Source of the DNA: Roseiflexus sp.
GTDB taxonomy: Bacteria; Chloroflexota; Chloroflexia; Chloroflexales; Roseiflexaceae
Assembly (NCBI GenBank): GCA_025062325.1
Contig: JANXAL010000062.1
Span: 1-35,488 of the forward strand
Length of the DNA: 35,488 nucleotides
Reading direction: 5' to 3'
This document shows positions 7,655-30,964 of the stretch, piece after piece. Position numbers and translations under genes: made by a program. The notes beneath the pieces are model-generated. The model was given only the letters and a program-made list of their open reading frames with translations. It did no database searches and was not told the origin of the DNA. Numbering within the stretch: the first letter of the stretch is position 1; each line of letters starts with the position of its first letter.

Positions 7655-7712
7655 ACCTGGCGCCTGAAGTCGCGGGCTACAATTGCGAAGCCCGCCTGCG
7701 CGGGCTAGATCC
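7655..7712. repeat. Short dispersed repeat with perfect hairpin
   Basis: The 127-bp gap between the 122-residue protein gene and the NifU-Rieske gene holds a palindromic element. AGCCCGC (7689-7695) and GCGGGCT (7700-7706) flank a CTGC loop, preceded by a second half-site cgcgggct (7671-7678). This kind of element is common in intergenic DNA of such bacteria. It may fine-tune mRNA stability inside the operon. Confidence 0.5.
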
Positions 7713-25986: not shown

Positions 25987-27921
25987 ATGTCGTTGCTGAC
26001 GCCGCTTGCATTGCTCAGCGCGCTGATTGTGGGGCCGCTGATCGTGGCGATGTATCTGCTGAAACTTCGCCGCGAGGAACGGCGCGTCTCCTCGACATTC
26101 CTCTGGCGGCGCATGGTGCGTGATGTGGAAGCAAATGCGCCCTGGCAGCGCCTGCGACGCAACTGGCTGCTCTTCTTACAATTGCTGCTCCTGCTGCTGC
26201 TGGCTATGGCGCTGGCGCGACCATTCTTCCTCACGACTGGCATCAGCGGGCGCAATCTGATTATCATTATCGACCGCTCGGCAAGCATGGCGGCGACTGA
26301 TGTTCCTCCTTCACGACTCGAAGCGGCGCGTCGGCAGGCGCAGACGCTGGTCGACCAGTTGCCTGAAGGCGGGCGCGCGACGATTATCGCTGTTGGCGGA
26401 CAGATGGAAGTGGTTGCAGCGTCAACCACTGATCGCCGCCAGATGTATGACGCCATTCGCTCGATTAGACTCAGCGTCGGCGGTCGCGGCGATCTGTCGC
26501 AGGCGCTGGCGCTCGCTACAGCCCTCGCGGCGCGCGAACCGGATAGCGAGGTTGCCATCATCTCCGATGGTAATGTCGAAATCCCGACCGATATTCGCGT
26601 TCCGGCGACTGTGCGTTATTTCCCTATCGGGCAACGCGCTGAGAACGTGGCGATCAGCGCGATGGCGCTGCAACCAGGTCCTGCCGGACAGACGCTGTTC
26701 GTACAGGCGACCAATTACGGTCCGGCATCGGTTGTGCGACGACTCGATCTTTACCTTGATGGCGCTCTCTTCAACGCATATGAACTTAATCTTGGTCCCG
26801 ACGGCGCCGCAGACGCCGTTCGGACCGTGATTGTCGATGTTCCTGCCCAGGTGCGTGTAGCTGAGGCGCGTCTCAGTCCAGCGCCCGGCGTAGACTTCCT
26901 GCCCTCCGATGATCGGGCATGGGCAGTGAGTTCAGCAGACGCTGGCGTCGAGGTGCGCATTGTTGGTCCTGGCAATCGCTTCCTCGAAACGGCGCTTGCG
27001 CTGTTGCCCGGCATTACTGCCACAAAAGCGACGACCACGACTGTTTCCGGCGAGGCTGCACCGCAGATTACGATCTTTGACCGTGTGGCGCCGGAAACGC
27101 TCCCGGCTGGCAATCTAGTGTTTATCGCGCCGATGCGCTCGACCAATCTCTTTTCCGTCACCGGCGTTGTTGATTTTCCGCTCCTGCGCCCGGCGCCAAT
27201 CGTTCTCGAAGGGCAGGCGCCGCCGCTGCTGCGGAATATCAGTGTGAGCGAAGTGAATGTACTGCGGGCAATGCGCATCGAGGCGGGAATGTGGGCGCGC
27301 ACACTGGTCGAAGGAGATGGCAGCCCGATGCTGCTGGCAGGGGAGCGCGAAGGGCGCCGGATCGTCATCCTGGCGTTTGCGCTGCAAGACTCCGACCTGC
27401 CGCTCCAGGTTGCGTTTCCGCTGCTGATCTCGAACATTATCGGGTATCTCGCGCCGGGGAGCGGTCTGGAGGCGTCGCAGATCGTTCCCGGGCAACCACT
27501 GGCTGTGGCGGTTGATCCCGCCGTAACCGCAGTGCGCGTCATTCGACCGGATGGGCGCGTCGAGGCGGCGCAGATTCAGGGCGGGCAGGCAATCTATGCC
27601 GGTACTGACGCGCTGGGACCATACCTCATTGAGCAGGCGCGTGATAACCAGGTGATCGATCAGCGTCGTTTCGCCGTCAATCTGTTCACGCCGGAAGAGT
27701 CGCGCATCGCGCCAGCAAGCGAGTTGCGCGTGCCACAGGTGAGCGGGTTGCAACAGGCAGTGACCCGCGAGCAGGTGGGTCGACAGGAGATCTGGCGCTG
27801 GCTGGCGGCTGCGGCGATCCTGGTGATCATTATCGAATGGCTGGTGTATCAGCGGAGCGGTCTAGCGTACCTATGGCAGCGCATCCGCCTCACGCTCGCA
27901 GCGCGTCGCCGTGCGGCGTAG
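25987..27921 (+). CDS. BatA-like membrane protein with VWA domain
   Basis: The 644-residue product has an N-terminal BatA-type module with membrane helices at about 5-25 and 60-78 flanking LKLRREERRVSSTFLWRRM. A VWA domain follows with the MIDAS motif D96-R-S98-A-S100 (IIIIDRSASM). A long extracytoplasmic region follows, and a C-terminal helix (about 603-621, AAAAILVIIIEWLVYQ) ends in a basic cytoplasmic tail. It is the usual membrane partner of MoxR/DUF58. The gene that should follow is broken (see 27923-28740). Confidence 0.93.
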   Translation: MSLLTPLALLSALIVGPLIVAMYLLKLRREERRVSSTFLWRRMVRDVEANAPWQRLRRNWLLFLQLLLLLLLAMALARPFFLTTGISGRNLIIIIDRSASMAATDVPPSRLEAARRQAQTLVDQLPEGGRATIIAVGGQMEVVAASTTDRRQMYDAIRSIRLSVGGRGDLSQALALATALAAREPDSEVAIISDGNVEIPTDIRVPATVRYFPIGQRAENVAISAMALQPGPAGQTLFVQATNYGPASVVRRLDLYLDGALFNAYELNLGPDGAADAVRTVIVDVPAQVRVAEARLSPAPGVDFLPSDDRAWAVSSADAGVEVRIVGPGNRFLETALALLPGITATKATTTTVSGEAAPQITIFDRVAPETLPAGNLVFIAPMRSTNLFSVTGVVDFPLLRPAPIVLEGQAPPLLRNISVSEVNVLRAMRIEAGMWARTLVEGDGSPMLLAGEREGRRIVILAFALQDSDLPLQVAFPLLISNIIGYLAPGSGLEASQIVPGQPLAVAVDPAVTAVRVIRPDGRVEAAQIQGGQAIYAGTDALGPYLIEQARDNQVIDQRRFAVNLFTPEESRIAPASELRVPQVSGLQQAVTREQVGRQEIWRWLAAAAILVIIIEWLVYQRSGLAYLWQRIRLTLAARRRAA

Positions 27922-27922
27922 T

Positions 27923-28740
27923 ATGGATGTGTCGTTCGTCTATCCCGAAGCGCTCTGACGTGCTTCCATCTTGCCGCTGCTCTGGTTTCTCGCGCTGCTC
28001 TCCCCAGTGCGCATTGGCGCCTGGCGACGATGGCTCAGCCTCGTGCTCCGCACCCTTATCGCGCTGGCGCTGATCGGCGCGCTTACTGGCGTGCAATTGG
28101 TTCAGCCTCCCAATACGACCATAACGATATTTCCTGCTTGATAGATCGACTTGGTTGCGGCATCACAACGCACGCGCCGAGGCATTCATCGCCCGAGCGC
28201 TGGCGATAATCCCGCCAGACAACCAGGCGGGCATCGTTGTGTTTGGGCGCGAGGCGCTCGTTGAGCGAATGCCTTCCCTGGAACGCACCTTTGGCGCGCC
28301 TGCGGCGCGACCCATCGGCAGCGCAACTTTATTTATTGCCGACGCGCTCAACTTCAACTTGGGCTGGCAATGTTTCCTGCAGAAGGGCACTGTCGGCTGG
28401 CGTTCCTCGTGTTCCGACGAAACAACGCAACGGATGGCAACATATGTCCGCGACTTTGGCGGCAGCCTGTCGGGGTCGGCGGTCTGCAGTCGTTCGGTCT
28501 GGGAGGCTAGCGCGATGCGCCGGTCGAAGCGGCGCTGCCGGTGACGATCGATATTCCTAAGTGTTAGCGTCAGCCTCCACTCAGCGTCGCGGTAGCGATT
28601 GGCACTTCGGGAAGCAATGTCCTTTTCCTTTGAGGATGACGTATAAACTATCAAACCTCTGTGCGTGATCCTCACCCTGCACACACCCGGCAACGCCCTG
28701 CCGCTGCGACGATGCGCTGACGCCTGTTGATCGCCCGCTA
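27923..28740 (+). pseudogene. Decayed VWA / glutamine-amidotransferase-like membrane protein gene
   Basis: One base after the BatA-like stop, ATG 27923 opens MDVSFVYPEAL and hits TGA. LPLLWFLALLSPVRIGAW and two membrane-helix segments continue in another frame to TGA-TAG at about 28139. RAEAFIARALAIIPPDNQAG and GIVVFGREALVERMPSLE then follow in a third frame. Near 28480-28620 GGLQSFGLGG, DAPVEAALPVTIDIP and LSVAVAIGTSGSN are readable between stops. These are pieces of a second large MoxR-operon protein (VWA with a Cys-less glutamine-amidotransferase-like domain), broken by several stops, frameshifts and deletions. About two thirds of the expected gene is missing or unreadable. Confidence 0.8.
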
Positions 28741-28871: not shown

Positions 28872-29030
28872 ATTAAATACAACTGGCGCCGGCGGGGGTG
28901 CCGACGCCAGTGACACGTGGCTAGGGGGGCGGCCACCGTGGGTCTGGGCTCAGTCGGGCGGCGCTTGTGCGCTATGGCAAACGCGGCTCTCCGCCAACCG
29001 CCTTTGCCCAACCCGACAGTCCTTCGACCG
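28872..29030 (-). ncRNA. Candidate structured RNA with intrinsic terminator
   Basis: Read on the minus strand, the region folds as follows. A closing stem GTCGGG/CCCGAC (29012-29017 with 28953-28958) encloses two hairpins: a longer one with stem GGCAAA/TTTGCC (29003-29008, 28976-28981) and an inner GCGG-AGAG-CCGC, and a short GCGC-ACAA-GCGC (28961-28972). A third hairpin CACG-G-TGGC/GCCACGTG follows (28914-28940). The last hairpin ACTGGCG...CGCCAGT (28882-28911; 11 bp with one mismatch, loop ACCCCC) precedes TTGTATTT and acts as an intrinsic terminator. An extended -10 lies just upstream. No protein gene follows on that strand, so it is not an obvious riboswitch. I cannot match it to 6S, SRP, tmRNA or RNase P RNA. 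Confidence 0.55.
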
Positions 29031-29035
29031 CTCTA

Positions 29036-29066
29036 AGTATACCACTGTCATGCCGCAGTGCGGCAT
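29036..29066 (-). promoter_or_regulatory. Promoter with operator-like palindrome for the structured RNA
   Basis: On the minus strand TGG-TATACT (29036-29044) is an extended -10. The -35 region is occupied by a perfect inverted repeat ATGCCGCA-G-TGCGGCAT (29050-29066). A regulator bound there would cover the promoter. It could also act on the plus-strand flavodoxin gene. Confidence 0.45.
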
Positions 29067-29166: not shown

Positions 29167-29210
29167 TCACTGCTGGTTGCCAGACCGTGCCCGCACAGGA
29201 ACAGCGCTGT

Positions 29211-29229
29211 GGTATGCTCGAAGCGAGCA
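29211..29229 (+). promoter_or_regulatory. Possible promoter/operator of the flavodoxin gene
   Basis: A TGG-TATGCT extended -10 (29209-29218) overlaps the inverted repeat TGCTCG-AAG-CGAGCA (29215-29229), about 35 bp before the start codon. No good -35 is visible. Confidence 0.3.
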
Positions 29230-29261: not shown

Positions 29262-29738
29262 ATGAGGGTCCTAATAGTCTACGCATCCTGGTTTGGGCAC
29301 AACCGCGAAGTCGCCAGAGTCATCGCCGACCGACTGTCACCGTATGCTTCCCATGTTATCTGTGCACCGGTAACCTCTGTAACTGCTAGCGATACCATAG
29401 GGTGTGACCTGCTGGTGCTGGGAAGCTTCACCCACGCCCACCACGCCAGTTGGCGCATGCGGCATCTGGTAGAAACCATTCCAGAGCGTCGTTTCAAGCG
29501 CATGGCAATAGCGGTCTTCGGCACACAAACCGTCAACGAGCGACCGAGCAGCATCGATGATCTGGTTAGCCTGCTGGCTAAACGAGGCGCGCGGTTGGTC
29601 GTCCCTCCGCTTAGGGTCATCCTCTCGGCGCCGGATTTCGTACCATGGTCGAGCATCACATCTGCCGAACGCGCCAAAATCGACGCGTTCGCTCAGTCGC
29701 TCGTGCATCAATTGGAACTTGAAACAGTGAGTCGATAA
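29262..29738 (+). CDS. Flavodoxin-like protein
   Basis: The start is ATG 29262, with GAGG eight bases upstream. The 158-residue product has a flavodoxin fold: MRVLIVYASWFGHNREVARVI with the FMN phosphate loop (residues 8-14, SWFGHN in place of the usual STTGNT), then LLVLGSFTHAHHASWRM, and IAVFGTQTVNER as the third strand with its loop. The loop residues differ from classical flavodoxins, so FMN binding is likely but not certain. It may serve as an electron carrier or a protoporphyrinogen-oxidase-type flavodoxin. Single gene. Confidence 0.8.
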   Translation: MRVLIVYASWFGHNREVARVIADRLSPYASHVICAPVTSVTASDTIGCDLLVLGSFTHAHHASWRMRHLVETIPERRFKRMAIAVFGTQTVNERPSSIDDLVSLLAKRGARLVVPPLRVILSAPDFVPWSSITSAERAKIDAFAQSLVHQLELETVSR

Positions 29739-29929
29739 GGAACATTCTGCTGGGATCGGTAGGGGAGAGGCAGCGTCGGCTCTACCGTTTGCTCGCACGA
29801 GCAATGGGCATGGAGGCAGGCAAACACACCGGATATGCCTGCATAATGCTGCTAGGGCGTTAGTCGCTCGTAGGCGTCTTCGCAGCGCGCTCCAGCGCAA
29901 TGATGCGCTTCCCAGCACAACATAGAACA

Positions 29930-30964
29930 ATGCTAAGACCAACTGACATTGCACGTGTGCTGTCCCACTACGAACTGGGACCAATCGAAGGAATCGCCGC
30001 CACGGGCCACGGGTTTGTCAATGAGACTGCCATTGTTGTCACGCGATGCGGGAAGTTTGTGGTGCGTCGCAACCACCATCGCTTCTCGCTGGCATCGGTA
30101 CGCTACCGTCATCACCTGATCGAGCGCCTCTGTCAGCGGTCGTTTCCAACAGCTCGTCTCATTCCGAACAAAACTGGTTCAACGGTGACGATTATCGACG
30201 GACGGATCTACGAGGTCCAGGAGTATGTGCACGGGACCGACTTCGATCCGAGTCGTCCGGCTCAGATTATGGAAGTCGGTGCAACGCTCGCCTGGTACCA
30301 TCAGGCAGTTGTTGATCTCCCGCCGCCAGGCGACGTGACGTTACCCCGGTATGCGCCAGCGCGCATTCCGTCCCTGACTGAGATCTTGTATGAACGCGAC
30401 GTTATGGGAGAACTGCACGCCGATCTTGCCTGGTATGACGGGCGAGCGTCAGCGTTGCGCGCTGCCCTGCCCGATCACGCATATGACGCATTGCCGCGGG
30501 TGCTGATCCATGGCGATATGCACCCAGATAACGTGCGGTTTGTCGGTGACCGGGTCGTGGCGCTGCTTGACTTCGATCAGGTCGAGCGCGATGCGCGCAT
30601 CGTCGATCTCGCGGATGCGCTGGTTGGATTTGCAACCAGAGTGATACCGTCGGAAACGACCTCTTGGGGCGTTTTCCAGGGTCCCTTGGACATTCCACAG
30701 GCGGTCAACCTGGTGTGCAGTTACGGTCGCATCGCGCCGCTGCTGCCGGGCGAGGTCGCTGCGCTGCCTGTGCTTATTGAAGTGCTCTGGCTGCGCGGTG
30801 AGCTCGGTCGGGTCATTTCGACGCCCGAGGGAGCGCCCGATTACCATGCGGCTGTGCTGGCGCAGGGCAAGCGCCTTTCGGAGTGGATGCAACAACACGC
30901 GCGGATGTTGATGGATCGCTGGAGCGAAGCAACAATTGGTCGCGTGGGCGCGCTCGCGGCATGA
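29930..30964 (+). CDS. Aminoglycoside-phosphotransferase-fold kinase
   Basis: The 344-residue product (from ATG 29930; 29900 is an alternative, neither has a clear site) has the APH/choline-kinase fold. It shows a glycine-poor nucleotide loop (ATGHGFVNETAIV, about 24-36), the catalytic loop VLIHGDMHPDN (H194, D196, N201) and the metal-binding LLDFDQV (D214, D216). The HGDxHxxN type is found in homoserine-kinase-II-like and SrkA-like enzymes. The substrate is unknown. Single gene with neither neighbour on its strand close by. Confidence 0.88.
   Translation: MLRPTDIARVLSHYELGPIEGIAATGHGFVNETAIVVTRCGKFVVRRNHHRFSLASVRYRHHLIERLCQRSFPTARLIPNKTGSTVTIIDGRIYEVQEYVHGTDFDPSRPAQIMEVGATLAWYHQAVVDLPPPGDVTLPRYAPARIPSLTEILYERDVMGELHADLAWYDGRASALRAALPDHAYDALPRVLIHGDMHPDNVRFVGDRVVALLDFDQVERDARIVDLADALVGFATRVIPSETTSWGVFQGPLDIPQAVNLVCSYGRIAPLLPGEVAALPVLIEVLWLRGELGRVISTPEGAPDYHAAVLAQGKRLSEWMQQHARMLMDRWSEATIGRVGALAA

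Follow-up and report, generated by a model that had tools for sequence, protein, structure and literature searches.

A predicted small RNA gene of Roseiflexus with a conserved fold and promoter boxes of the PhaR type

A lineage-specific gene for a structured small RNA is almost certainly present on the minus strand of the window (the whole stretch of 35,488 nucleotides from Roseiflexus sp. that was analysed, contig JANXAL010000062.1), and both the gene and its fold are under selection. We read this predicted gene as encoding a PhaR-controlled, Hfq-independent, trans-acting small RNA that would report the status of storage granules, and put the probability of this reading at roughly 60%. Roseiflexus is a hot-spring bacterium, and PhaR, a DNA-binding protein that senses polyhydroxyalkanoate, acts as the switch for granules of stored carbon (bioplastic). 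New in this case are the RNA family and its place in the Chloroflexota PhaR regulon, while the regulatory logic is known from the small RNA MmgR. The elements of the RNA, of its promoter and of the divergent flavodoxin gene are listed in Table 1.

Table 1. Predicted features of the RNA gene and of the adjacent promoter region, in window coordinates
Feature	Position	Strand	Basis or remark
Small RNA gene, ~155 nt	28875..29029	-	covariance-model match 28875-29029; 7 genomes with compensatory changes; fold z -3.5
Three-way-junction domain	28941..29029	-	RNAalifold consensus and pair counts
Closing stem P1/P2	29029-29026 pairing with 28944-28941	-	
Stem P3	29017-29011 pairing with 28959-28953	-	
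Hairpin P4, loop GGCGGAG	29008-28976	-	
Hairpin P5	28972-28961	-	
Bulged hairpin P6, 5' arm invariant	28914..28940	-	consensus structure
C-rich loop CGCCCCCCUA of P6, candidate seed	28931-28922	-	unpaired in partition function
Intrinsic terminator: 12-bp stem, loop ACCCCC, tail UGUAUUU	28875..28911	-	terminator scan; hairpin 28911..28882
Extended -10 TGGTATACT of RNA promoter	29036..29044	-	sequence; TATACT invariant in 7 genomes
Box 1, perfect 17-bp (8-1-8) palindrome ATGCCGCAGTGCGGCAT, core CGCA-N-TGCG	29050-29066		over -35 region; centre at -29 from RNA start
Box 2, TGACGCGCTGCGTAA	29098..29112		centre at -76 from RNA start; spacing to box 1 of 46-47 bp in the seven genomes
Box 3, TAACGCACTGCGTAA	29144..29158		fixed 67 bp to flavodoxin -10 motif in all seven genomes
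Extended -10 TGGTATGCT of divergent flavodoxin gene	29210..29218	+	conserved in 7 genomes
Flavodoxin-like protein gene	29262..29738	+	synteny; divergent neighbour of RNA, kept in 7 genomes
Kinase related to homoserine kinase	29900-30964	+	follows flavodoxin gene

Conservation and fold of the RNA

Among 60 relatives searched at the nucleotide level, the RNA was detected in 6 of 6 Roseiflexus genomes and in G009, a genome of a different genus in the same family; the identity to the window RNA is 89-95% in the five other Roseiflexus genomes and 74% in G009. The covariance search that the preliminary description had proposed was run on 82 genomes of the order and recovered these seven carriers, but none beyond them (next best E 0.06), and a second, weak set of matches with E of 0.06-0.4 was taken as chance. 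When the conserved block RACCCRCGGTGGCCRCCCCCC was scanned for exactly in one genome per species (84,980 species), matches occurred only in RNA-carrying genomes, these being Roseiflexus MAGs, the MAG L.E.CH.5 and one Chloroflexota MAG; viral contigs gave no match. Within the genus the identity drops from ~0.9 to ~0.5 and lower directly past the terminator, and the promoter and the terminator form the exact borders of the conserved block.

The predicted RNA has its 5' end near 29029 and its 3' end at the terminator, and its fold energy of -80.5 kcal/mol (z -3.5) was equalled by 0 of 200 shuffles. In the alignment of the seven sequences 98.8% of the pair cells hold standard pairs, and 7 pairs spread over five helices show double-sided changes; shuffles gave 2.2 such pairs and slid controls no more than 2. 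The stems, on whose retention in homologous regions the earlier proposal had been made to depend, are thus kept, and the compensatory changes expected in them do occur in the seven genomes. Each of P1, P3, P4 and P5 has one or more pairs changed on both sides, and the terminator stem has two; examples are GUCGGGU/GCCCGAC changing to GUCGAGU/GCUCGAC, GCGC/GCGC changing to GCGU/ACGC and, in the terminator, G-C changing to A-U. The P6 helix has no double-sided change (0 pairs), and its support therefore comes from conservation only.

The ~155-nt minus-strand layout of the preliminary description was recovered with its elements in place, including the bulged hairpin (P6), which belongs to the consensus structure. 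Two of its parts need qualification. The three-way junction is the minimum free energy (MFE) structure in the window's species and appears in the RNAalifold consensus, but the sequence of G009 folds by itself to a different MFE structure; as G009 alone prefers another structure, the closing stems of the junction are the least certain part of the fold. The intrinsic terminator, earlier called strong, has the 12-bp hairpin and the two covarying stem pairs, but its U tract is weak. Between the genera, the alignment columns 88-108 (the C-rich segment) are 90% identical and P4, which is invariant inside the genus, is 70% identical. The best-kept segment at this distance reads ACCC(A/G)CGGUGGCC(G/A)CCCCCC, and its C-rich loop is predicted to be unpaired.

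On comparison with the 4227 Rfam families at E up to 10, nothing relevant to the RNA was found; a known RNA class was accordingly rejected, in agreement with the first impression that it fits no standard class. A coding role is excluded because single-base indels at several alignment columns break any reading frame, and, as had been said, no coding gene is attached on the RNA strand. A riboswitch or leader was also rejected, since the RNA strand has no conserved downstream gene in the window or in G003 and conservation stops at the terminator. A CsrA-sequestering RNA of the CsrB/RsmZ type was discarded as CsrA was not found in the genus and the RNA has only two GGA motifs, both conserved; a pseudoknot between the P4 loop and the C-rich loop (GGCGG/CCGCC) is not kept in G009. 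It is highly improbable that the block is a conserved regulatory or structural DNA element that resembles an RNA gene and gives no functional transcript: ORFs of 73-77 codons do overlap it on both strands, but the indels are frame-breaking, the base-pair changes are compensatory and the promoter and terminator stand exactly at the ends of the conserved block.

The 3' flank of the RNA varies between species. In G003 the region downstream of the RNA carries tandem repeats that read as APTAPLRPDCAAAPPSASTG units (L031:6973-7587). Positions 27837-28560 of the window hold short ORFs only, where G003 has an intact 984-aa gene of the von Willebrand/BatA type, and look like a broken copy of that gene. 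Elsewhere in the window, a CRISPR-DR28 direct-repeat match was found at 7684-7707, just over the gathering score.

Promoter boxes and the predicted PhaR regulon

The preliminary description had recognised the layout of a regulated small RNA and named no regulator; this layout is supported by an independent, conserved gene with covariation and by the boxes at its promoter. The extended -10 and the perfect 17-bp palindrome in the -35 region are both present as described (Table 1), while a sigma-70 -35 hexamer is absent at the RNA promoter and a generic promoter scan does not include this site. Altogether three boxes of the type CGCR-N-YGCG lie between the RNA and the flavodoxin gene. Across the window there are six matches to the loose pattern TNNCGCRNYGCGNNA where 0.95 would be expected, and three of the six lie inside 108 bp here. 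With respect to the RNA start, the centre of box 1 is at -28 to -30 and that of box 2 at -74 to -76 in the seven genomes, and in G009 one box doubles as boxes 2 and 3. The product of the divergent gene resembles flavodoxins of the PDB (E 4e-5) and the NCBIfam model flav_short (E 3e-10, below that model's cut-off); its match to Pfam Flavodoxin_5 is weak in the window and above the cut-off for the G003 orthologue.

The box is also found at phasin (PF05597) promoters, where it covers the start just downstream of TATACT, in genera ranging from Roseiflexus to remote members of the family; a second phasin gene has it too. The palindrome TAACGCANTGCGTTA, seen family-wide just downstream of the -10 of the two phasin paralogues (L097-L112; G000:C70:11751, G000:C36:2807), is predicted to be an operator through which PhaR acts on Chloroflexota phasins. 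These proteins form the coat of polyhydroxyalkanoate granules and are classic PhaR targets. In six Roseiflexus and G009 phaR itself carries the box, with one mismatch, overlapping its own -10 (L143, L157-L163; L153:1867-2400), which suggests autoregulation, as is known for PhaR. The gene downstream of phaR is patatin-like (L153:488-1699).

A PhaR-type protein (PF07879, 81-84 bits) is encoded in the genome of the window, and of the 26 family genomes 12 have PhaR, among them every RNA carrier; TAACGCRNYGCGTTA is absent from 13 family genomes that lack both PhaR and phasin. It may be added that only the DNA-binding domain of the homologue matches well, that its C-terminal half is divergent and that it scores 70 bits on the NCBI PhaR model against a cut-off of 109 bits. 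The core of the Roseiflexus boxes recurs in published PhaR sites: that of S. meliloti is YGCR-N-YGCR (PMC12542648), and R. eutropha has TGCR-N-YGCA, centred on a single base (PMC12849132). Because the palindrome at the RNA belongs to the boxes that also mark the phasin and phaR promoters, the regulator is most likely PhaR, and we consider it very likely that the RNA promoter is under PhaR control. Binding of PhaR to the boxes of the RNA promoter is a well-supported prediction, least certain for box 1, where the outer arms (TGC..GCA) differ from those of the phasin boxes (TAA..TTA).

Box 1 could instead be bound by another factor, for example of the Fur family, with PhaR using boxes 2 and 3 mainly for the flavodoxin gene. 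Besides the differing outer arms of box 1, this would agree with the one FUR gene present, with the 7-1-7 symmetry that also occurs in Fur-family sites and with a flavodoxin-like neighbour, flavodoxin being a classic iron-stress product; yet the CGCA-N-TGCG core is complete in box 1, the distance of box 2 is fixed to the RNA promoter and not to flavodoxin, and the sequence is not Fur-box-like. We hold this explanation to be unlikely. Fur as the sole regulator was rejected: one FUR gene was found, but the boxes carry the PhaR core and are located at the phasin and phaR promoters.

Other boxes were seen apart from these promoters. One lies between a GNAT acetyltransferase gene and a divergent homoserine dehydrogenase gene, in Roseiflexus only (L113-L117, G000:C137:19617), and the threonine pathway may be linked to the PhaR boxes, a link considered because the kinase beside the flavodoxin gene resembles homoserine kinase. 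More boxes lie upstream of a HEAT-repeat-like gene and a lipoprotein-like gene (L144:2013 = G003:C1:5766712; L145:1954 = G009:C128:80953).

Proposed mode of action and significance

When little polymer is present, PhaR would occupy box 1 over the -35 and keep the RNA off, probably with the help of the box 46 bp upstream. As granules form they would draw PhaR off the DNA by binding it, and the RNA would then be switched on at the same time as the phasins and PhaR. Repression is predicted from the position of the box, since a box that covers the -35 region should keep RNA polymerase away from an extended -10 promoter. By analogy, activation from -75 may occur as well: PhaR of R. eutropha both represses and activates (PMC12849132). 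The RNA would act in trans without Hfq, which was not found in six Roseiflexus genomes in a search that detected its control. Its exposed C-rich loop would most likely pair with the G-rich ribosome-binding sites of metabolic mRNAs, this pairing being the most tentative step of the model, and the RNA probably helps to adjust metabolism as the cell fills with storage polymer.

The pairing of the RNA with the leaders of the two phasins, GNAT and flavodoxin was found to be no better than with 319 background leaders, and the second phasin, GNAT and flavodoxin were set aside as targets. In the window's species the RNA segment GGUGGCCGCC matches the phasin leader GGAGGCCACC at 9 of 10 positions, which beats 99.7% of the background, but the match fails in G004, G005 and G009 and phasin was dropped as a pairing target. 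A PhaR-controlled RNA might also work without mRNA pairing, by binding a protein or small molecule through the three-way junction and the GGCGGAG loop. The compact and strongly structured RNA, the P4 hairpin invariant in the genus, the two conserved GGA motifs, the lack of Hfq in the genus and the tested leaders that gave no target are all consistent with such binding, but CsrA, which usually binds GGA loops, was not found in the genus, P4 is less well kept between the genera than the C-rich segment (70% vs 90%) and the structure of G009 folded by itself is uncertain. We regard this alternative as unlikely, and likewise the new family that it would imply, a non-pairing RNA whose ligand would be a protein or metabolite of the polymer cycle and that arose independently in an Hfq-less lineage under the regulator of MmgR. 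Base pairing is the likelier mode of action, but unproven.

If the reading as a PhaR-controlled trans-acting RNA is true, this would be, to our knowledge, the first small RNA under PhaR control outside alphaproteobacteria and, for Chloroflexota, a rare case of a small RNA with an assigned functional place; our literature search found no example of either kind. It would suggest that a small RNA coupled to storage-granule status arose at least twice. For Chloroflexota, where we found none earlier, the analysis also yields a motif for the PhaR operator and a predicted regulon of small size (two phasins, phaR, flavodoxin and the RNA), and these make the idea directly testable in cultured Roseiflexus.

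Comparison with known systems

FsrA of Bacillus and IsrR/RsaE of Staphylococcus are Hfq-independent small RNAs with C-rich loops. The Roseiflexus RNA resembles them in its exposed C-rich loops, which could cover Shine-Dalgarno sequences, and differs from them in fold, regulator and lineage. With the PhaR regulon of Ralstonia and Sinorhizobium the predicted regulon shares the core YGCR-N-YGCR with its single-base centre (PMC12849132, PMC12542648), phasins as main targets and boxes placed over the start site or the -35, and in Roseiflexus phaR itself carries a box. It departs from that regulon in its TAA..TTA arms, in a set that includes the flavodoxin and the new RNA, and in the divergent C-terminal half of the PhaR homologue.

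The closest counterpart is MmgR (alpha-r8) of Sinorhizobium meliloti, where a PhaR homologue represses this small RNA by binding to a dyad located between its -35 and -10, and where MmgR lowers phasin protein and polymer (PMC12542648, PMC8401924). Each is a stand-alone small RNA gene whose -35/-10 region holds a PhaR-type dyad, is placed in one regulon with the phasins and is a presumed reporter of storage-polymer status. Of the properties that define the functional class of MmgR, a PhaR-type box in the core promoter is present in seven genomes, and the genome that carries the RNA also encodes PhaR and has this box at its phasin and phaR promoters; as to a post-transcriptional effect on phasin, leader pairing is at background level and not conserved, and an indirect effect is possible. 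Whereas MmgR is a 77-nt, Hfq-dependent, alphaproteobacterial RNA that lowers phasin protein, the Roseiflexus RNA is ~155 nt long with a three-way junction, Hfq was not found and its pairing with phasin is unsupported. Its length (~155 vs ~77 nt) and Hfq set it apart from the MmgR/alpha-r8 family proper. The Roseiflexus RNA would therefore belong to a circuit of the same layout as that of MmgR, built with a different RNA.
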